The position numbers and the translations under genes are program-made. A stretch of DNA of 14,894 bases. It comes from Lachnospiraceae bacterium. Its GTDB lineage: Bacteria > Bacillota > Clostridia > Lachnospirales > Lachnospiraceae. Numbering within the stretch: position 1 is the stretch's first letter; every line of letters begins with the position of its first letter. The notes under the pieces were generated by a model. It was not told the origin of the DNA, searched no databases, and saw nothing but the letters and a program-made list of their open reading frames with translations. Shown here one piece after another: positions 5,003-14,894 of this stretch. The stretch lies in contig JAFUXY010000150.1 of the NCBI GenBank assembly GCA_017477005.1, positions 1 through 14,894 of the forward strand. Reading direction: 5' to 3'.

Positions 5003-6736
5003 CTACGCCTTCACACCGGCAATGCAAGCCTTTTTGCAGAAGCAAATACCAAAGGAGATTGCCCCGGCATAGCCCTCGTCCAAAATCCCTTCCTCGTACT
5101 TCTTGTCCTCAATCTGTCTGTATGCTTCCAAAAGCCCATCGTTCATCTCGCTAAACTTTTTGCGCGTCTTGACCTCAAAGATGTACGCCGGGTCTCTTGG
5201 ACGATTCGGGTACAAGACGATATCCGGTCGGCCATCTCCCGCCTCCCGGTTGCTTCTCGCCCGGTAGCGAGGCATCTCTGTCAACATAGAATGCAGAAAT
5301 CCATGATAGAAAAACTCACTGCTGTCAAAGGTACTAATCGTTTTGCCCAATATGTCCGTCAGAATATCTCCGATCGTGTCTGCATCCTTTTGCAAGATCG
5401 CAGCGTACAAATCCTGGCGGCTTGTGCGCCGAACAATTCCCTCAAACCAATTACGAATCTGATTCCTATAGATGCTTTTTATTTCCAGATTGGGAATCCG
5501 CATGGCCACATAGACATCATCTCCGTCTTCCCTTTCTGACACCTTGCGCATATAGCCTGTGAAAAAAAGGAAATTCCATAGATTCTCCCTGCTCTGATAG
5601 ATATCGTCATAGGTAATATCCTCGTGAATCCGTTTCTCGATGGTTCCACCGGCGATCAGCTTCTCCAGTTCTTCTTTGGTTTCCTCATCCGCCTGCTCCA
5701 CCAAATCTTTGATGATGGCATTTCCGGAGGTGTTCGCCCAGTATGGCTCCGGAAACTGCATGCCGTCAATTACCTTGCTGTACACATAATGCGTCACGCT
5801 CCACGGATTGTAGATCTCGGTATTCCCGAACAGATAGCCGTTGTACCATTTCCGCACTTCTTCCGTCTTCTCCGAAAGACCGTACGCCGCAAGCATTGCC
5901 TCCGTTTCCTCCTGCGTGAAACCAAAGCCCTCTGAAAATCCCGTTCCCCGGACAGAATTGATCACCAGATTATTTAATCCCGTGAAAATACTCTCCTTGC
6001 TAATGCGTAGACAGCCGGTGATTATAGCCCGTTCCAAAGCCGTGTTCGTCTTCAAAGCCGATTCAAACATCGAGCGGATAAAACCGACCATCTGCCTGTA
6101 GAATCCGGCATAATACGCATTTTCCAAAGGCACATCGTATTCATCGATCAAAATAATAACATTTTTGTCGTGGTGCTTTTTTAACAGTTTGCACAAATCT
6201 CCGATCGCCGTTGCAAAGGCGCCTATATCCTTTTCCAGTTCTCTGTCACCCTCTTCATCATACGAATACGAATGAAGCGTCGCTGCAAGCCATGTTCGAA
6301 TCTTATCTTTGTCTTCGTCATTCAGCTTTTCGGACTCCAACAGATACCTATGCCTGTCCACTTCACTGGCGATCACATTCCGAAGCTGATAGAAAGCGTT
6401 CTTAAAATTGGGCTGTTTGGCCGATTTCAAGGTCATGAACAGCACCGGATACTGCCCCTGCATGGCAAGAATTTCAGGAGACGCTTCCATGATCTTTTTC
6501 CCAGTGAAATACCGGGCGTTGTCTACCACATTTCCATCATAGTCGTATTCCAATTCAAAGAATGTCTGCAATGTAGTAAGCGCCAACGTCTTTCCAAATC
6601 GACGAGGTCGGGTAAAAAGCGTCACCGTTCCGCCCTGCTCCACAACATCACGGATCAAAAGTGTCTTGTCCACGTAATACAATTTTTCATCAACAAATCT
6701 CTTATAAAACTCATATCCCATTCCGATTCTCTGCAT
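5003..6736 (-). CDS. AAA-ATPase-like protein with C-terminal PD-(D/E)XK nuclease-like domain
   Basis: A 577-residue member of the AAA-ATPase_like/PDDEXK_9 group (formerly DUF1703), which is found in many copies in gut Clostridia and Bacteroidetes. The N-terminus YYVDKTLLIRDVVEQG leads to a modified Walker A (TRPRRFGKT, K49). Walker B is VIILIDEYD (D198, E199), followed by TGCLRISKESIF (240-251) and the WYNGYLFG segment (about 297-304). The C-terminal nuclease-like fold has PDIVLYP (D505) and FEVKTRKK (E521, K523), the D...ExK signature, after SNREAGDGR. The start is supported by GGAGG seven bases upstream. Its role is unproven; genome-defence, mobile-element or regulatory roles are possible for the family. 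All visible motifs are intact, in contrast to the decayed relative at 9858-10424. A J-domain gene follows 8 bp downstream. Confidence 0.87.
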   Translation of the reverse strand: MQRIGMGYEFYKRFVDEKLYYVDKTLLIRDVVEQGGTVTLFTRPRRFGKTLALTTLQTFFELEYDYDGNVVDNARYFTGKKIMEASPEILAMQGQYPVLFMTLKSAKQPNFKNAFYQLRNVIASEVDRHRYLLESEKLNDEDKDKIRTWLAATLHSYSYDEEGDRELEKDIGAFATAIGDLCKLLKKHHDKNVIILIDEYDVPLENAYYAGFYRQMVGFIRSMFESALKTNTALERAIITGCLRISKESIFTGLNNLVINSVRGTGFSEGFGFTQEETEAMLAAYGLSEKTEEVRKWYNGYLFGNTEIYNPWSVTHYVYSKVIDGMQFPEPYWANTSGNAIIKDLVEQADEETKEELEKLIAGGTIEKRIHEDITYDDIYQSRENLWNFLFFTGYMRKVSEREDGDDVYVAMRIPNLEIKSIYRNQIRNWFEGIVRRTSRQDLYAAILQKDADTIGDILTDILGKTISTFDSSEFFYHGFLHSMLTEMPRYRARSNREAGDGRPDIVLYPNRPRDPAYIFEVKTRKKFSEMNDGLLEAYRQIEDKKYEEGILDEGYAGAISFGICFCKKACIAGVKA

Positions 6737-8491: not shown

Positions 8492-9670
8492 TTAGTCTCC
8501 CTCAAAAACCATCTTCAGCAGCACCGGAGTCAGTAAGGTCGTAATAATCACGACTACGACGATTGGTGCAAACATCTCCTCGCTGACAAGGGAAATCTGG
8601 CGTCCTTTTTCCGCCACGATCAGCGCGACCTCCCCGCGGGAGATCATGCCCACGCCGATCCGAAGGGAATCCTTGCCGTTGAAACCACAGCATTTCGCTC
8701 CGAAACCGCATCCCAGCATCTTTGAAAGAATCGCCACGACGACCAGCACTACAGCAAACAGCCACATCTGTGTCGACATATGACCTATGGAAACCTTGAT
8801 CCCTATGCTCGAAAAAAACACCGCCATGAAGAACATATTCAGCAAGTTTTCAATCTTTAGATCAATGTAATCCCGCAGCTTTGAAGAGCACAGGATCAGC
8901 CCGGCGAAATACGCCCCTGTAATATCCGCAATACCAAAAAAATATTCCGATACAAACGCCATTAGCATGCAAAAGGACAACCCAAAAAGCCCCGCCCTTC
9001 GTTTGTGGTCATTCTTGGCTATCATCGGTTCCATACGATGGATCACAAAATACAAAATCCCGATCAAAACCGCATAGAGAACAATCTTGCCCCCCACCTC
9101 CACGGGACGGGCGGTGGTATCCCTCATACTTGTCACAATGGTCAGCACGATGATCCCCAAAATATCGTCGATCACAGCCGCGCCGAGAATTGTCGTCCCC
9201 ACATCTCCAGACAGCTTCCCCATCTCTTTCAAGGTCTGAACCGTAATACTCACGGACGTCGCCGTCAGAATTACGCCAACAAAGACCGCTTCAAGCATCG
9301 CCGTCGAATCTGCCGGATCGATGCCGAAAAAAAGCCCAAAGCTCAGCGTTCCCAAAACCAGCGGCACCAGTACGCCGATGATTGCTGTCACCATAGAGGC
9401 CTTCAGATTTCGCTTCATCTGATCCATATCCGTGGTGAGCCCGGCGGAAAACATCAGAAACACCACGCCCAATTCAGCCGTGAACTCCAAAAACTCACCT
9501 GTTGGTGTAGCGTCGTCGATCACGATACATCCCAGCAAACTGGGTCCCAAAAGCACTCCGGCCAGCAGATAGCCCACCACCTCCGGCAGATGAATCTTTC
9601 TCACACAAAGCCCACAGACCTTTGTGGAAAACAAGATAATCGCCAGCCAAAGCAAAAAGATATAACTCAT
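8492..9670 (-). CDS. Cation:proton antiporter (CPA2 / Kef-NapA type)
   Basis: A 392-residue polytopic inner-membrane protein with about 11-13 hydrophobic helices and no C-terminal TrkA-N/RCK domain, so shorter than KefB/KefC. Typical CPA2 segments are HLPEVVGYLLAGVLLGP near the N-terminus, ELGVVFLMFSAGLTTD, LTATSVSITVQTLKEMG, GAAVIDDILGIIVL with the adjacent Asp pair expected in electrogenic Na+/H+ exchange, ITGAYFAGLI, and ISRGEVALIVAEKG near the C-terminus. It likely exchanges Na+ or K+ for H+ and supports pH or osmotic balance; the ion is not determined. The start at 9670 is chosen because AGGGAG lies 5-7 bases upstream and the first helix begins immediately; the longer frame to 9766 would run through its own promoter. 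The glucosidase gene follows in the same direction. Confidence 0.9.
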   Translation of the reverse strand: MSYIFLLWLAIILFSTKVCGLCVRKIHLPEVVGYLLAGVLLGPSLLGCIVIDDATPTGEFLEFTAELGVVFLMFSAGLTTDMDQMKRNLKASMVTAIIGVLVPLVLGTLSFGLFFGIDPADSTAMLEAVFVGVILTATSVSITVQTLKEMGKLSGDVGTTILGAAVIDDILGIIVLTIVTSMRDTTARPVEVGGKIVLYAVLIGILYFVIHRMEPMIAKNDHKRRAGLFGLSFCMLMAFVSEYFFGIADITGAYFAGLILCSSKLRDYIDLKIENLLNMFFMAVFFSSIGIKVSIGHMSTQMWLFAVVLVVVAILSKMLGCGFGAKCCGFNGKDSLRIGVGMISRGEVALIVAEKGRQISLVSEEMFAPIVVVVIITTLLTPVLLKMVFEGD

Positions 9671-9722
9671 TGCGCTCTCCCTTCTACTCTCCGCGCAGTT
9701 CCTCAACCATCTTTTCCCCCAC

Positions 9723-9731
9723 ATTATACCA
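9723..9731 (-). promoter_or_regulatory. Extended -10 promoter of the antiporter gene
   Basis: The minus strand reads TGGTATAAT, a full -10 hexamer with the TGn extension, about 50 bases upstream of the antiporter start. No good -35 is visible at 16-18 bp, which fits an extended -10 promoter. Confidence 0.55.
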
Positions 9732-9764
9732 CATCCACCATTCATAAAACACAAAAGAAATGGC

Positions 9765-9793
9765 AAAAAAAGAGACAGAGTACAATCTGCCTC
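9765..9793 (-). terminator. Intrinsic terminator downstream of the AAA-ATPase-like pseudogene
   Basis: On the minus strand the stem GAGGCAGA / TCTGTCTC (8 bp, one G-U pair, 6-nt loop) is followed directly by seven Ts. It lies between the pseudogene end (9858) and the antiporter promoter, so it insulates the antiporter unit from leftward transcription. Confidence 0.75.
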
Positions 9794-9816
9794 AAAAAAT
9801 ATACATTTCTCTGAAA

Positions 9817-9830
9817 TTATAGTAAACGAA
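9817..9830. repeat. 14-bp direct repeat, left copy flanking the pseudogene
   Basis: TTATAGTAAACGAA occurs here and again at 10440-10453, in the same orientation and bracketing the AAA-ATPase-like pseudogene. The right copy continues into a palindrome; this copy does not. Confidence 0.7.
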
Positions 9831-9857
9831 TTTAAGAATTGCCTAATAAAACCAGAT

Positions 9858-10424
9858 TCAGCCCTTTCGAATCAGGCACTGTTCCCCCTCAAAAGCGAAG
9901 CCGTACTTCAGGATGCGGTCATGCGGAATGCCGCGGGCGAGAAGGTCGGCATCGTATCTCTTCTCTTCGATCTGCGCGAGGGCGTTTTGGGCGGCATCCT
10001 CGAGGGTCTTCTCGCCGTCCTCGGTATCGAATACCTTGAATTCCATGATAACGGCGACATTTTTTGAGTCTTTGGGCTCCATGACCACATCGTAGCGCCC
10101 GTAGCCGCTCTCCCTGTTTGACTTGACTTATATAGTCAGTGGGAATGAGCGATCTGAAAACAATTCCACGATATGCTTTTTTATTCCAATTACAGCGTCA
10201 GCATAGTTGTTGGCCTTTACTCCGGCAAAGGTTATAAATATCACCGGAAACGTTCCCTGCAGATGTCGGTATGTCTCTTCCTCCCAGATCGACAGCCCTT
10301 CAAAAAGGTCGCCGCGGCCCTCGTATTTATTGGAAAAGAAATAATCCAGCATACCTACATAGAAACAGTCATTTTCTCGCAGATATTCAAAATCCTGCGT
10401 CCCCATAGATACCGTTTTAGCCAT
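9858..10424 (-). pseudogene. Decayed AAA-ATPase-like/PD-(D/E)XK gene
   Basis: Two minus-strand pieces in the same reading frame belong to one former gene of the family seen intact at 5003-6736. The first (10424-10128, 98 codons) starts with GTQDFEYLRENDCFYV and jumps straight to GMLDYFFSNKYEGRGDLFEG. By comparison with the intact relative, about 30 codons covering the RPRRFGKT Walker A are missing. It continues through TFPVIFITFAGVKANNYADA and ends at a TAA. After the stop the same frame resumes with VKSNRESGYGRYDVVMEPKD, VAVIMEFKVFD (nuclease ExK) and a normal C-terminus ending at 9858. Roughly 350 residues of the middle, including Walker B, are absent. Ribosome binding site (GGGAGG), promoter and terminator remain. 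The short frame starting at 10088 is only the tail piece. Confidence 0.85.
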
Positions 10425-10439
10425 GTGTCTGCCTCCCTT

Positions 10440-10468
10440 TTATAGTAAACGAACAAAGTGAGTTTACT
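10440..10468. repeat. Imperfect palindrome with the right copy of the 14-bp direct repeat
   Basis: AGTAAAC (10444-10450) and GTTTACT (10462-10468) are perfect inverted arms. Extended to 11 bp, the arms mismatch at two positions, around a 3-nt centre. The first 14 bases (10440-10453) repeat the sequence at 9817-9830. It lies between the promoter and the start codon of the pseudogene, so it could have been an operator, or the end of a small mobile unit. Confidence 0.6.
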
Positions 10469-10515
10469 TTACACCAATACTATACTATCATTCGGAAAGT
10501 TCTTGTTGATGAAAC

Positions 10516-10545
10516 ATTATACCACGAAAGCATAAGACGTGTAAA
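10516..10545 (-). promoter_or_regulatory. Sigma-70-type promoter of the AAA-ATPase-like pseudogene
   Basis: The minus strand has TTTACA (10545-10540), an 18-bp spacer and TGG-TATAAT with the hexamer at 10521-10516. It points at the pseudogene start about 90 bases downstream, with the palindrome in the leader between them. Confidence 0.65.
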
Positions 10546-10610
10546 TGGGATGATATTTCAAATATACTGATCCATTGAGTATCCATCCCGCCTTATTCCC
10601 TTTCCGATGC
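10546..10610. other. Gene-free spacer (centre of the 10425-10783 interval)
   Basis: The 10425-10783 interval holds no credible coding sequence. It contains the palindrome, the pseudogene promoter, this unstructured spacer, a leftward terminator, an A/T-rich stretch and a GC-rich inverted repeat. I see nothing in 10546-10610 itself. Confidence 0.5.
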
Positions 10611-10646
10611 CAAAAAAGAAAGAGACAGGCCTTTCCACCTGTCTCT
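10611..10646 (-). terminator. Intrinsic terminator ending the CRISPR/toxin-antitoxin transcript
   Basis: On the minus strand a perfect 9-bp stem AGAGACAGG / CCTGTCTCT with an 8-nt loop is followed by TTCTTTTTTG. It is the first convincing terminator met by leftward transcription from the CRISPR array, so it probably ends the transcript covering cas1 through the BrnA-like gene. Confidence 0.8.
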
Positions 10647-10723
10647 CTCACGCATGCATAAACTTTTCTTTTTTTGGGGTTTGTTACTTGTTTTTGTTCT
10701 GTGTTTGATTACATATATAAATA

Positions 10724-10753
10724 CGACCCCACCTTCCGAAAAAACGGGGGTCG
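10724..10753. repeat. GC-rich inverted repeat downstream of the BrnA-like fragment
   Basis: CGACCCC (10724-10730) pairs with GGGGTCG (10747-10753) across a 16-nt interior that contains CCG-AAAAAA-CGG. No T run follows on either strand, so it is not called a terminator. It may mark a breakpoint that removed the end of the upstream gene, or be an RNA-processing hairpin. Confidence 0.45.
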
Positions 10754-10783
10754 CAGAAAAAAATTTCAAAGCAGGGTCTTTTC

Positions 10784-11002
10784 CTAATCAACCAACACGG
10801 AATCAAGCCGAAGAAAAGTAAGCTCCTTAATCGGACGATAATACTTCGGATTAGCAGGCATAAACTCAGCAAGCTCTTCATCTGTGAGTTCTGGAGCATC
10901 ATCCGTAAATTTTATAGGTCTTCCTGCAGCCGCCCTTATCTCTTCTAACTTTTCTTTAGTAGGCTGGTCCCCAGCTTTCAACGTCATCGTTACTGTAGCC
11001 AT
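10784..11002 (-). pseudogene. BrnA-like antitoxin, C-terminally truncated
   Basis: A 72-residue acidic protein: MATVTMTLKAG, a helix PTKEKLEEIRAAA, then FTDDAPELTDEELAEF and an ending FLRLDSVLVD. This resembles the N-terminal part and first strand of BrnA-type antitoxins, whose family usually continues from a xxLRLD strand into two helices containing a GYQxRIN-like motif (ribbon-helix-helix DNA binding). Here a TAG follows VLVD and I find no continuation in the other frames, so the DNA-binding helices appear lost. That comparison is from family knowledge and not from an alignment. The ATG overlaps the stop of the upstream reading frame (TAATG), with GGAG just upstream, so translation is probably coupled. 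No BrnT-like toxin gene is next to it. An intact short protein of another family remains possible. Confidence 0.55.
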
Positions 11003-11151
11003 TATATATTCTCCTTACCATTTTGCTCAACAATACCTCCGACATATTCTAAAACTGTAGAAACAATTTCTCTTGCCATCGCAACCTGCTCTCTGGTTTC
11101 GGGTATTGAGATCACAAAAAAATTCTCATAGTCACTCTTTGTTCTGATCAT
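11002..11151 (-). pseudogene. Displaced C-terminal part of the HEPN protein
   Basis: A 49-codon frame begins MIRTKSDYENFFVIS and runs through ETREQVAMAREIVSTVLEYV to a stop that overlaps the next ATG (TAATG). The R-T-K-S-D-Y-x-x-F-F-V-x-S pattern followed by a long amphipathic helix is the usual C-terminus of PF05168-type HEPN proteins. It therefore belongs to the gene at 11148-11444 but lies in its -1 frame. No good ribosome binding site precedes its ATG. Reading across an A6 run with a -1 shift would give one protein of about 147 residues, a normal length for the family. Confidence 0.7.
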
Positions 11152-11444
11152 TTGAATTTTCCCGATTTTTTGCTTATTTCCTTGGGAAACACTCCCTCCT
11201 TGACATAAATCTTATTAAATGCTCCAATTACCTGAGAATGATGTTTATAAGCTAAATTTTTCAAAGAGAGACAAGCTGACAAAGCATAAAAGACTGCGTA
11301 ATATGATCGGTTGTTCGCTGTCTTGTATTCTTCTATTTTCAGATTTTTTTCAGCTGATTCCAATGCTTCCCATGCGACAGACATACGGTATTTAACCAAT
11401 TCTATATTGTAGTCTTTTGTTTTTATTAAATCATCATTTTTCAT
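11148..11444 (-). CDS. HEPN-domain protein (HepT-like), frameshifted at an A6 run
   Basis: A 98-residue frame matching the N-terminal two thirds of a PF05168 HEPN domain: YRMSVAWEALESAEKNL, then NRSYYAVFYALSACLSL, then HHSQVIGAFNKIYVKEGVFPKEI. In MNT/HEPN modules the HEPN protein is an RNase-like toxin and the MNT protein its antitoxin. Here the RxYYAxF segment carries Tyr53 where RX6H members have His, a variant that also occurs in this group, so activity cannot be judged. After AGC-AAA-AAA the frame gives SGKFK and a TGA, while the family C-terminus continues in the -1 frame (11002-11151). The gene overlaps the MNT gene by 11 bp and has a strong GGAGGAAGG binding site, consistent with an antitoxin-toxin operon. 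It may be dead, phase-variable or expressed by frameshifting. Confidence 0.72.
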   Translation of the reverse strand: MKNDDLIKTKDYNIELVKYRMSVAWEALESAEKNLKIEEYKTANNRSYYAVFYALSACLSLKNLAYKHHSQVIGAFNKIYVKEGVFPKEISKKSGKFK

Positions 11445-11931
11445 ACAACCATATACCTTCCTCCCTCACATTATCAAAAAAAGGATCGGTTCCCTGTTCC
11501 CTTCTATCAAAGTAGTCTTGACCATACATCAACGGATTAACAACGATGTATTCGTCTTCACGCTCCCCCACATCATACTCATAACTTACATTAAAAGCAA
11601 TCTCCGAAAGATTATCGCCATTATTTCTGACCTCATCTTCTGAATAATCTGTCACTACCAAAATATCAACATCAGAACCGAATCTGTAATCCCCCCTTGC
11701 ATAAGAACCAAACAATATGATTTCTCTAATATGAGAGCCATAACAGTCTACCGCTTGCCTTACAAACTCATCAAGCTTCATCTTGACTTTTGAAGGAATC
11801 GGCTTTTTTAACTCGTATGGATTTTCCCCCTCATCATAAAACGTAATCAGAAATTTTTTTCCATTGAAACCAGATAAATCCGAATCTAGGATAATACTAT
11901 TATTTTGAACTCGACCATTCAGTGTTTTCAT
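11434..11931 (-). CDS. MNT-type nucleotidyltransferase (MntA-like antitoxin) with N-terminal extension
   Basis: A 165-residue protein. Residues about 52-165 form a minimal nucleotidyltransferase with the signature GSYARGDYRFGSDVDILVV, i.e. GSX10DXD with D87 and D89 as metal ligands. D120 in SYEYDVGE is a possible third acidic residue. In characterised MntA/HepT pairs this enzyme neutralises its HEPN toxin by adding AMP groups to a tyrosine; that role is inferred here from the overlapping HEPN gene. The first 35 residues (KTLNGRVQNNSIILDSDLSG...) resemble the short beta-barrel pattern of DUF104/AbrB-like antitoxins, an unusual fusion. The start has GGGGAGGA nine bases upstream. The gene lies 40 bp after csm6, with no terminator or clear promoter between them. 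Confidence 0.85.
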   Translation of the reverse strand: MKTLNGRVQNNSIILDSDLSGFNGKKFLITFYDEGENPYELKKPIPSKVKMKLDEFVRQAVDCYGSHIREIILFGSYARGDYRFGSDVDILVVTDYSEDEVRNNGDNLSEIAFNVSYEYDVGEREDEYIVVNPLMYGQDYFDRREQGTDPFFDNVREEGIWLYEK

Positions 11932-11972
11932 TTTGACACATCCTCCCCGTCAAAGGTATCAAGCAAAGACAT
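11928..11972 (-). CDS. Possible 14-codon bridging ORF between csm6 and the MNT gene
   Basis: The minus strand contains a 14-codon frame, MSLLDTFDGEDVSK. Its ATG overlaps the csm6 stop as TGATG and its own TGA overlaps the MNT start as ATGA. Such double overlap would carry ribosomes from csm6 into the MNT gene. No good binding site precedes it; the nearby GGGG is too close to the ATG. It may be a coupling leader, the 3' remnant of a lost gene, or chance. Confidence 0.3.
   Translation of the reverse strand: MSLLDTFDGEDVSK
11932..11954 (-). promoter_or_regulatory. Hairpin holding the MNT ribosome binding site in its loop
   Basis: TTTGAC and GTCAAA on the minus strand form a 6-bp stem whose 11-nt loop is GGGGAGGATGT, which contains the MNT Shine-Dalgarno. 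The stem ends at the start codon. It could be a translational control element or a small operator; the symmetry may be fortuitous. Confidence 0.3.
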
Positions 11973-13288
11973 CACCCCATTTTTTCAATTATTCTTTGGT
12001 TCATAATATCATATGAATTCCAGTCGTCCTTTTTTACTCGAATCCCGGAATAATGAAATAATTTCTTGATAAGATCCATGATCTGTTTTGCATTGTACCC
12101 TGTGTTCATTTTTATCATTTCATCTGGAATAGCCGTCATTTGATGCGCTGCTACATTTCGTATCTTTGCCTCAACGAACCGAAGATCGTCAATCAGCTTT
12201 GTCAATTCATTATCCTCTGACATTTTTTCGATCAAGACTATCATATGGGACGAATAAACCGGACTATTCGTTCGAAATTCATAGAAACCCGTCTCAAGCA
12301 ACCGCAAAACCTCTGTTCCCTGCAGCTTGTTTATATCCCATTTCATACTACCATCTGAACATACTTTGCAATATCTTTTCAAGTCTATACGGCAGGTTTT
12401 CAAAAGGATTCTTTCTAGCAACCCAGCAAACAGCGGCGTAAACGCTCGTATAAAGTCCGCATATTCTCCCCTTCTGCGTTTGATGTCCATAGATAGGGCG
12501 TATTCGAATACTTTTCTGTCATCCGTCGACCATACAGGGAAAAGACGCTCTCGATTGTTCTCTGAAAATTTTCCAATTCCACTGTTGTCCAATTCCAACC
12601 GAGCATGTGCCAATTGTAGAAATCGCTCATAAGCCACCGTTCTTTCTTTCGGCAATAGTTCTACCATGCGAATTGCGGCCGCATAATCATAGGCAAGGAT
12701 ATGTTTCTTTAGTATTTCTTCGTTTTTTATAGCGGACAATGTCGGACACTTTATTTCGCGACAGCGATTCTCTGTTTCGCCGTTGTCTTCGTTCAATTCC
12801 CATACTGTTTCAAGATCAAATCCTTTGTGAGTATGTTCATTCATAGATCTCGTTGGAGTGACGACCTGGATGGCCTTGCAAGGAAATTCCCCCAATGTAA
12901 TCAGCACCAACAGCCCGCTTTTCATGGCGGGTGTTCCACTGGAGATATTGATTAATAAACTATCCTTCTCATCCAGTTTTGAATAAATATCCCGAATAAT
13001 CTGACCAAACTCAGCATAAAAATAATCATACTCCTGCACATCCTCCAGATCGGGTCTTTCGATCAAGGATACCTCTATATCCCTACCCTGCTGTTTTGCA
13101 AGCTGATGGATACAGTATACATATCGGTTGTCCTTCCTGTGATAAGACAACATTTCTTTTGAGAGAAACAACACCACTTGGTCTGGCTGATAATAGCGAC
13201 ATATATGAAGCATAGATCCATCCCGCAAATTATTCAGCGATATCGGATCCGTTCCCCCTATCGGAGAAAATAATACCTTTTTACCCAT
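11972..13288 (-). CDS. csm6: Csm6-type CARF-HEPN ribonuclease (type III CRISPR accessory effector)
   Basis: About 438 residues from the preferred start. The N-terminal CARF domain (about 1-165) starts with GKKVLFSPIGGTDPISLNN, includes DGSMLHICRYYQPDQVVLFLSKEM, and has the ligand-binding ISSGTPAMKSG motif (about 115-125), as in Csm6. A helical linker leads to a C-terminal HEPN domain with RNVAAH, the R-x4-H catalytic motif (R377, H382). In type III systems Cas10 makes cyclic oligoadenylate on target recognition, which binds CARF and activates HEPN RNA cleavage. The first ATG (13309) overlaps the cas2 stop as ATGA, but the ATG at 13288 has AAGGA seven bases upstream and starts at the conserved N-terminus, so it is preferred; either start may be used. 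The Cas10 gene is not in the window. Confidence 0.9.
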   Translation of the reverse strand: MGKKVLFSPIGGTDPISLNNLRDGSMLHICRYYQPDQVVLFLSKEMLSYHRKDNRYVYCIHQLAKQQGRDIEVSLIERPDLEDVQEYDYFYAEFGQIIRDIYSKLDEKDSLLINISSGTPAMKSGLLVLITLGEFPCKAIQVVTPTRSMNEHTHKGFDLETVWELNEDNGETENRCREIKCPTLSAIKNEEILKKHILAYDYAAAIRMVELLPKERTVAYERFLQLAHARLELDNSGIGKFSENNRERLFPVWSTDDRKVFEYALSMDIKRRRGEYADFIRAFTPLFAGLLERILLKTCRIDLKRYCKVCSDGSMKWDINKLQGTEVLRLLETGFYEFRTNSPVYSSHMIVLIEKMSEDNELTKLIDDLRFVEAKIRNVAAHQMTAIPDEMIKMNTGYNAKQIMDLIKKLFHYSGIRVKKDDWNSYDIMNQRIIEKMG

Positions 13289-13305
13289 CGTTCCATCCTT
13301 TTCCA

Positions 13306-13632
13306 TCATATCACAATCACATCCTCGTCATCTTCCGGAATTTCCTTTGTTCCCCAGGCGCTAATCTGACTTTGCCCCGTAATCCGATATACGCGAATGC
13401 TGTCCTCGCTGCTACAGAACCTAGGAATCTCTTCCATTAATTTGTTGTATTTCTTTTGCGTTAGTCTTGCCTCGAAAGCGGATTTTTGCACCCTCGTACC
13501 ATATCCCTCTAAATGCTTTGCAAACTTTGTACGCTTTTTGTTCTCTATGATATCATAAATGATCAATACAAGTATTTTTCGAGAGTCACTATCGACTTTT
13601 ACCTCAAAAAAATAATTTTCCGTTTCTATCAT
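13306..13632 (-). CDS. cas2: CRISPR-associated endonuclease Cas2
   Basis: A 108-residue Cas2. The core begins with KILVLIIYDI, where D27 is the conserved metal-ligand aspartate of the first strand. It continues with KRTKFAKHLEGYGTRVQKSAFEA and then SIRVYRI and a C-terminal acidic tail. About 18 residues precede the core, a little more than in most Cas2 proteins. It forms the structural centre of the Cas1-Cas2 integrase that inserts new spacers. The ATG at 13632 overlaps the cas1 stop (TGATG) and has AAGGA seven bases upstream; an in-frame TTG at 13635 is less likely. Its stop overlaps the first csm6 ATG. Translational coupling along cas1-cas2-csm6 is therefore likely. Confidence 0.95.
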   Translation of the reverse strand: MIETENYFFEVKVDSDSRKILVLIIYDIIENKKRTKFAKHLEGYGTRVQKSAFEARLTQKKYNKLMEEIPRFCSSEDSIRVYRITGQSQISAWGTKEIPEDDEDVIVI

Positions 13633-14633
13633 CAACGTATCCTTATTGGCTCATATACTTCTGCACTTTCCCTGCGTATCGCCTCAACCAATTTGCCTAC
13701 CTGAAGGGCGACAGCTCTTCGAAAGCTCACTGGATAATCCACATACTGTAAATACCTTATTTCTGTTTGAAGCTTTCTTTCCATCTTTTTCAAATAGGTT
13801 TGCAATCCTTTTCGCTGAATATAACATCCTTTGCTCTCTTCATCGAAATAAAATTCCTCTCTTTGGATTTCCGCGCCATTGATCATTCCCATCGCTAAAG
13901 CATCTACAATCACCGCCCGCCATTCCTCTATCAAATCACTCGCTAACGTAGGATGCTTTTCTGCATCTCTATGCATAAAGCCAAAATACGGATTTAGCCC
14001 ATGATTTTCAATTTCTTCGTAGAGCAAGTTCATTAAAATCGAATATCCCAAAGATATCATGGAATTGAACGGGTCTAAAGGCGGTCGTCGGTTTCTGCCA
14101 GAAAAAGCAAAGTTTTCATTGATGCATTTTGACAGTCCTTGAAAATAATACCTTGCTCCCAATCCCTCATGTCCTGTAATCTGCGTAATATCCTTTCCAC
14201 GTTCAATTTTCTTTTGAGAATTTGTTAGTTGCAATTCCTCCTGTTTTATATCTGTCTTTGTCGATTTTGCATACCGCCGCAATACGACCAATTGATTATG
14301 CACCTTCGCCTCCAATATTCGTTTGCTTAACTCCAAAGCAAACGATGTGTCGTACATGGACGCTTGTTTTCGCTGTAATTGGGCGTTGATATGCCCCGTT
14401 GACATCAGCCTTCCAAAATAACTCCCACCTTTCGAGAAAAAGGCTATTGGAATGCCGTTTTGAAGGCATTTTTCCATACATTGAGTAGTAATCTGTGACT
14501 TACCCAACAAGATAATACTTTCCACAGATTCAATCGGAAGGCTTTTCGTCATTCCATCCTGATAGTGTACTTTTATTCGATTACTTTCTGTCGTAATCTT
14601 CGCTCCATTTTCATTGATATATAGCAAACTCAT
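13632..14633 (-). CDS. cas1: CRISPR-associated integrase Cas1
   Basis: A 333-residue full-length Cas1. The N-terminal beta domain runs to about residue 80 (SVESIILLGKSQITTQ, GIPIAFFSKGGSYFGRL). The helical catalytic domain has E156 in TGHEGLGARYYF, H221 in YFGFMHRDAEKHP and the acidic cluster ASDLIEEWR (E236/E237), the E-H-E/D metal site. It also has RPPLDPFNSMISLGYSIL (183-200), typical of Cas1. With Cas2 it integrates spacers at the leader end of the array. The start codon at 14633-14631 directly abuts the leader-distal degenerate CRISPR repeat, and the AAAGGGG ribosome binding site lies inside that repeat. No reverse transcriptase or Cas6 fusion is present. The neighbours cas2 and csm6 and the repeat type point to a type III-A (Csm) locus. 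Confidence 0.96.
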   Translation of the reverse strand: MSLLYINENGAKITTESNRIKVHYQDGMTKSLPIESVESIILLGKSQITTQCMEKCLQNGIPIAFFSKGGSYFGRLMSTGHINAQLQRKQASMYDTSFALELSKRILEAKVHNQLVVLRRYAKSTKTDIKQEELQLTNSQKKIERGKDITQITGHEGLGARYYFQGLSKCINENFAFSGRNRRPPLDPFNSMISLGYSILMNLLYEEIENHGLNPYFGFMHRDAEKHPTLASDLIEEWRAVIVDALAMGMINGAEIQREEFYFDEESKGCYIQRKGLQTYLKKMERKLQTEIRYLQYVDYPVSFRRAVALQVGKLVEAIRRESAEVYEPIRIR

Positions 14634-14667
14634 TTATGTCCCCTTTCGGAGTTTTTATTTTCAAATC
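14634..14667 (-). repeat. Degenerate terminal CRISPR repeat that carries the cas1 ribosome binding site
   Basis: This 34-nt unit aligns with the three downstream repeats with five differences, three in the first eight plus-strand positions, one in the TTTATA stretch (A to T) and one at the last base. Degeneration marks the leader-distal end. On the minus strand it reads CTCC-GAAA-GGGG, then ACATAA, then the cas1 ATG. The hairpin therefore persists with one G-U pair, and its 3' arm is the Shine-Dalgarno of cas1. Confidence 0.85.
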
Positions 14668-14894
14668 TGTAAACAAGTATACAGTGACATGGAAGAGCCA
14701 AGACTTTCCGTCTCCTTTCGGAGTTTATATTTTCAAATGCCAGCACGACACAACAGACGCATGGGATAATGGTTCATAATTCCGTCTCCTTTCGGAGTTT
14801 ATATTTTCAAATGAACCCTCAATAGGGGATGGTTCACGGGGTTAAACAACGGACTTCCGTCTCCTTTCGGAGTTTATATTTTCAAATGCAGGAT
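14634..14894 (-). CRISPR. CRISPR array, leader-distal end, cut by the window edge
   Basis: Four repeats are visible: a degenerate one at 14634-14667 and three identical 34-nt copies at 14706-14739, 14780-14813 and 14855-14888. On the plus strand they begin TTCCGTCTCCTTTCGGAG and end TATTTTCAAATG. Spacers of 38, 40 and 41 nt separate them, and a fourth is cut off after 6 nt. On the minus strand each repeat folds as CTCC-GAAA-GGAG (GNRA loop) and ends in GACGGAA, resembling the ACGGAAAC handle of the Streptococcus thermophilus Csm system. Together with the degenerate repeat next to cas1, this sets transcription leftward, with the leader outside the window on the right. Exact repeat ends could shift by one or two bases. 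Confidence 0.95.

Follow-up and report, generated by a model that had tools for sequence, protein, structure and literature searches.

A cas1 start codon fused to a degenerate CRISPR terminal repeat, with a putative Shine-Dalgarno sequence inside the repeat hairpin

In the stretch of Lachnospiraceae DNA analyzed here (the window, 14,894 nucleotides, contig C538 (G000:C538) of its own draft assembly) the start codon of cas1 is fused to the degenerate terminal repeat of a CRISPR array, and the putative cas1 Shine-Dalgarno (SD) sequence lies inside the hairpin of that repeat, a combination that sets this locus apart from its relatives. The reading that we favor, with modest confidence, is that a type III-A locus with its array inside the gene block has lost the gap in front of cas1, so that the 3' arm of the terminal-repeat hairpin would act as the cas1 SD on transcripts reading through the array, that the weak hairpin would only temper initiation and a Cas6 cut would leave the message poorly translated, and that the arrangement arose as a by-product.

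The junction of the terminal repeat and cas1

The terminal repeat (ATTTGAAAATAAAAACTCCGAAAGGGGACATAA) covers 33 nt on the reverse strand (14666-14634) and the cas1 ATG follows directly 3' at 14633-14631, in agreement with an earlier sequence-only reading in which the ATG was the triplet right behind the degenerate repeat. On the 36-nt frame of the relatives' repeats the same copy extends over 14632-14667 and the ATG overlaps it by 2 nt (gap of -2), with an in-frame TAA immediately before the ATG. The cas1 gene (13632-14633, reverse strand) begins ATGAGT and encodes 333 residues, with a Pfam Cas_Cas1 match (1e-88) and Cas1_IIIa as the best PADLOC model. In an alignment with 12 relatives its start coincides with their conserved N-terminus; across the 13 rows S2 is invariant and M1 is present in at least 90%. 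The junction and start codon as read from the window are confirmed as real. Their sole source is a single contig of a draft, probably metagenomic assembly of 538 contigs and 76.4% completeness.

Relative to the exact repeat, the terminal copy carries one T to A change in the A-rich 5' part, GGAG to GGGG in the hairpin and GACGG to GACAT behind it, amounting to 4 changes in the 27-nt core and six on the 36-nt frame. The change to GGGG had been noted from the sequence alone, along with removal of the GACGGAA handle bases; the latter holds in part, GAC and the last AA being retained.

The hairpin (CTCC-GAAA-GGGG, 14640-14651, reverse strand) is of the Cas6 type and has a predicted folding energy of -4.7 kcal/mol (exact repeat, -5.6). 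Its stem of only four pairs, one of them G-U, is weaker than that of the exact repeat, and the single stem change converts a U-A to a U-G pair. The putative SD (AAAGGGG, 14640-14646, reverse strand) places its Gs in the 3' arm of the stem, and 6 nt (ACATAA, 14634-14639, reverse strand), a remnant of the crRNA handle, separate it from the ATG. The proposal that the AAA-GGGG arm is the cas1 ribosome binding site (RBS) with ACATAA as spacing is thus matched by sequence and predicted fold as far as the layout and a putative SD within the hairpin are concerned. The SD/anti-SD duplex energy is -11.8 kcal/mol, comparable to that of native cas1 SDs (median of -10.75 for 46 cas1 starts of relatives), and was computed with a Firmicutes anti-SD because the exact 15-base pattern of the 16S 3' end is absent from the assembly. 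In predicted folds of 45-170 nt the four SD Gs are mostly paired (unpaired probability 0.02-0.2). The hairpin 3' arms of 61 consensus repeats all resemble an SD (-6.4 to -10.2, median -8.4, with -7 or lower in 46 of the 61), so that the repeat offers a ready-made, half-hidden SD and loss of the gap would call for no new one.

The type III-A locus and its relatives

Behind the junction, cas1 is followed on the same strand by cas2 (13306-13635; listed start TTG at 13635 with an ATG directly after, Cas2 profile matches beginning at residue 22) and csm6 (11972-13309; CARF and HEPN domains, TIGR02672 at 1e-146). In front of it, the leader-distal part of the array (14667-14894, reverse strand) holds spacers and three exact 33-nt repeats (14706-14738, 14780-14812 and 14855-14887) and runs off the contig. 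Its probable continuation is found on contig C343 (L009:6394-6786), where six more exact repeats stand behind cas6, cas10/csm1, csm2, csm3, csm4 and csm5; the 27-nt repeat core at up to 3 mismatches matched only these nine places in the assembly. The whole locus, all on one strand, would then read cas6-csm1-5, 136 nt (leader), array, cas1-cas2-csm6; that C343 joins C538 is inferred, since both contigs end inside the array. The exact repeats end CTCCGAAAGGAGACGGAA, and the two bases that follow the 33-nt unit are AC in the three leader-proximal copies on C343 only, and GT (mostly), TT or AG elsewhere; the relatives' 36-nt repeat typically ends ACGGAAAC.

The gene content is that of a type III-A system. 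NCBIfam profiles match C343 frames for Csm1 (2.8e-233), Csm2 (1.7e-16), Csm4 (5.1e-72) and Csm5 (2.1e-28) and for Csm3 in two pieces (9.3e-31 and 9.9e-29), so that Cas10/Csm1 and Csm2-5 are all represented, tied to the window through the inferred join. Csm6 has both its CARF and HEPN domains, Cas6 is encoded in the same assembly (L009:160-843 on C343, TIGR01877 at 3.1e-19), and the repeats carry a hairpin before an 8-nt handle of the ACGGAAAC type. Uninterrupted effector genes are expected of an active system, without strictly defining one; here csm3 is split by an in-frame TAA (L009:3900-3902, C343) into pieces whose matches to the Csm3 profile follow one another. The stop is either a true lesion or an assembly error, and because of it the system may be decaying.

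At 11148-11931 (reverse strand), behind csm6, a HEPN-domain protein is encoded beside a nucleotidyltransferase, resembling a HEPN-MNT toxin-antitoxin pair, with an NCBIfam MntA match below the cut-off. At 9858-10088 and 10128-10424 (reverse strand) two short frames look, from their translations, like remnants of a gene of the same general kind as the 577-residue frame at 5003-6736.

In the type III-A locus of Staphylococcus epidermidis RP62a the array precedes the whole cas/csm gene block. Unlike that locus, the window locus has its array between csm5 and cas1 and its last repeat fused to cas1. The two are alike in keeping leader, array and cas/csm genes together, with cas1, cas2, csm1-6 and cas6 present, according to reports on RP62a (PMC9762709, PMC5404769), the first of which describes Cas6 cutting within repeats to give crRNA intermediates.

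Relatives were drawn from one scan of genome contigs (best 80 of 200 Cas1 relatives) and four genome searches, and counts refer to these 80 plus the window. A same-strand array lies upstream of cas1 in 60 of the 80, so the array running into cas1, which the sequence-only reading had considered, is ordinary here. Wherever a same-strand csm5 is visible upstream of an array-bearing relative's cas1, the array sits between the two (45 of 45; 44 by script and L037 by the coordinates of its exact copies), and the array inside the gene block is the usual layout of the sample. The other 15 array-bearing relatives show no upstream csm5, in most cases owing to the end of the contig. The genuine exceptions, as far as the sequence shows, are L084, with its cas6-csm genes behind csm6, and L045, which lacks a csm gene over the 6 kb in front of cas1. 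In L090 and L091 the interval between csm5 and array holds other sequence as well. Thirteen relatives have csm5 upstream and no detected array, and in six of these (L035, L046, L082, L098, L099, L106) cas1 follows csm5 by 16-52 nt.

Among the 61 loci with an array, window included, the gap from repeat end to cas1 is at most 20 nt in 5, 30 nt in 13, 60 nt in 32 and 100 nt in 41. The window has the smallest (-2), followed by L088 (11 nt), L095 (14 nt), L041 and L051 (16 nt each); the relatives range from 11 to 2943 nt, and their gap is 11-60 nt in 31 of the 60 and 11-30 nt in 12. Type III-A loci of relatives with the array between csm5 and cas1, many of them from Lachnospiraceae (examples are L034, L041, L049, L051 and L088), share with the window the gene order, the strand and a degenerate terminal repeat near cas1; in [Clostridium] aminophilum (L034, L040) the gap is 48 nt. 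The difference lies in the SD: among the 40 relatives with a gap of at most 100 nt, 39 have it downstream of the repeat, where it would stay on the mRNA after a Cas6 cut, whereas that of the window would not. In the lone exception (L088) the energetic optimum lies at -24 from the ATG, too far, and AAGGAAGTGAG nearer the start is a second candidate that overlaps the handle. An SD inside the stem-loop at usable spacing is therefore private to the window in this sample, and the fused repeat-SD-ATG junction recurs in none of the 60 array-bearing relatives.

Wider searches gave the same picture. A conserved junction was rejected: a scan of 397 family genomes for the pattern hairpin-GAC-N0-14-ATGAGY returned three matches, of which only that in the window is cas1, those in L113 and L115 belonging to other genes. 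In the family search 22 of the 397 genomes, our own included, encode this cas1 at E 1e-50 (junctions read by eye; this set overlaps the later one), and searches of the order (392 genomes) and class (391 genomes) added nine more loci, none of them fused on reading by eye. The five other genomes of the genus lack this cas1 at E 1e-30, and plasmids show no DNA similarity to the window, tblastn against them giving 140 records, all below 60% identity. Alignment of the junction in relatives, put forward earlier as a check, thus shows it not to be conserved: repeat-SD-ATG is a one-lineage variant rather than a conserved switch, and the SD positions in the relatives make a link between Cas6 and cas1 translation impossible as a general design.

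Expression and origin of the fused junction

In the window lineage the stretch that separates the terminal repeat from cas1 in most relatives would have been lost, leaving the repeat as 5' UTR. On our favored reading cas1-cas2-csm6 would be translated from a transcript reading through the array, and the weak 4-bp hairpin with its G-U pair would merely temper initiation. In type III-A repeats the Cas6 cut lies on the 3' side of the stem, at its base, and leaves eight bases ahead of the spacer. At this usual position the cut would fall between 14640 and 14639 and, because the SD is 5' of it, would remove the SD, leaving ACAUAA-AUG, a 6-nt cas1 leader from which translation would be poor. The cut itself may fail, given the changes next to the presumed site and the weaker stem. 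An effect of Cas6 in this one lineage is physically plausible from the sequence.

The foremost alternative, which we regard as rather unlikely, is a separate cas1 promoter within the last spacer or the terminal repeat, in which case the repeat would be a mere 5' UTR and array processing irrelevant. Room for a promoter exists in the 20 of 60 array-bearing relatives whose gap exceeds 100 nt (102 to 2943 nt), whereas in the 12 with gaps of 11-30 nt it would have to sit in acquired spacer or repeat sequence. Across 14400-14894 no sigma-70-like or terminator-like site was scored on the cas1 strand and no sigma-70-like site on the other, a result that carries no weight for or against a promoter: at 41 junctions and 32 leaders this kind of scan found no excess over shuffles. 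Rfam gave no match at gathering scores in 9000-14894. Read antisense, the exact repeats of the window (14706-14872, forward strand) resemble weak intrinsic terminators, a hairpin followed by a T-rich stretch, with 3 against a shuffled mean of 0.5.

An evolved feedback loop also appears unlikely. Here plentiful free Cas6 would bind and cut the terminal hairpin, strip the SD and lower Cas1-Cas2-Csm6, and scarce Cas6 would leave transcripts uncut and raise their output. The position of the SD 5' of the usual cut, the retained hairpin whose sole stem change still pairs, and the presence of Cas6 in the assembly speak for it. Against it stand the lack of conservation of the junction among the near-cas1 relatives described above, the placement of the window on a lone branch of the Cas1 tree, and the interrupted csm3, which makes a tuned switch less credible in this genome. 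That assembly at a repeat dropped a short piece between the terminal repeat and cas1 is very improbable: the draft is fragmented and both contigs end inside the array, but random collapse would not supply a distinct terminal copy (six changes) with a good SD at good spacing.

Rather than a feedback switch shaped by evolution, the fused junction is most likely a by-product of a deletion or fusion that has been tolerated. A single deletion between the repeat AAAGG and a native SD of the AAAGGGG type, as found in L051, L070 and L086, could yield the window junction in one step. In the Cas1 tree (77 of 81 rows) the window is a lone branch (0.49) in a poorly resolved set, and four gap classes mapped on the tree take 32 changes against a shuffled mean of 41.5, hence some clustering of gap classes.

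To our knowledge, little is known of how type III systems keep spacer acquisition in line with the making of guide RNAs, and a natural locus in which a Cas6 hairpin supplies the cas1 RBS bases makes this link directly testable by reporter. In the literature searched, represented by partial texts, no account of a CRISPR repeat that serves as RBS for cas1 was found, a statement that holds for that search. The nearest likeness is to engineered Csy4 (Cas6f) switches, in which a CRISPR endoribonuclease hairpin is placed in an mRNA, as in the window, and cutting alters stability or translation (PMC8621321). Those switches are man-made, the activator freeing the RBS by cutting and the repressor working through mRNA stability (PMC8621321), whereas a cut in the window would remove the RBS.

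Erosion of the terminal repeat

Degenerate last repeats of CRISPR arrays have long been known. In the 51 loci with a gap of at most 300 nt, window included, a stem of at least four pairs is found in 46 terminal repeats, against a mean of 5.95 in shuffles. The handle differs from the consensus at 38% of positions in the terminal repeat versus 9% in the penultimate one, and is exact in 1 of 51 versus 30 of 51. Mismatch in the terminal stem-loop (12%) is close to that in the 5' part (15%; penultimate repeats, 8% and 9%), and it is the handle rather than the stem that is the outlier, which speaks against a strong claim of stem retention. Where a four-pair stem lies in fixed register (39 loci, 156 pairs), 137 pairs show no change, 9 have changed yet still pair (8 as G-U) and 10 no longer pair.

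Handle erosion increases as cas1 comes closer. The mean number of differences out of 8 is 3.38 at gaps of up to 30 nt (n=13), 3.16 at 31-60 nt (n=19), 2.11 at 61-100 nt (n=9), 1.80 at 101-300 nt (n=10) and 0.90 beyond 300 nt (n=10), with a Spearman coefficient of -0.46 within gaps of up to 300 nt, a trend noticed first and then tested on the same loci. The 28-nt repeat body lacks such a trend (means of 4.69, 2.63, 3.78, 5.20 and 2.80 over the same classes). At the 14 two-row tree forks with an array in both rows, handle erosion is stronger in the row whose gap is smaller in 10, with 4 ties and no reversal; the two gaps differ at least twofold at 7 of the 14 (5 in favor and 2 ties), a pair of gaps as close as 21 and 22 underlies one of the ten, most forks differ by one or two bases and some are poorly supported. 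In the far loci insertions may have separated the array from cas1, and deletions bringing cas1 nearer could have trimmed the handle. Pure truncation as the cause of handle loss was considered and rejected: past the first mismatch, positions -4 to -2 match in 43 of 85 cells versus an A content of 36% in the gaps (based on 42 in-register loci, positions -2 and -1 near background), and substitution seems to contribute.

The trend fits a relaxed need for the handle, a role as 5' UTR, or avoidance of false guides from cas1 mRNA. In its most elaborate form, which we put forward tentatively and think distinctly improbable, the terminal repeat of arrays inside type III-A gene blocks would be a dedicated border element, at which a Cas6 cut would part the guides from the cas1-cas2-csm6 message and whose handle would have been erased against loading of false guides into the Csm complex; in the window this border would have been pushed into the cas1 RBS, making Cas6 a repressor of acquisition. 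A border that keeps its stem and loses its handle as cas1 nears allows a comparative approach to the question of whether an mRNA that follows an array needs shielding from use as guide, and is the part worth following.

A minor feature of the array was seen by eye: a spacer starts TTATG behind the SD-like AAAGGAG of a repeat and so opens a frame of 14 codons (14733-14777, reverse strand) that runs into the next repeat and stops there.
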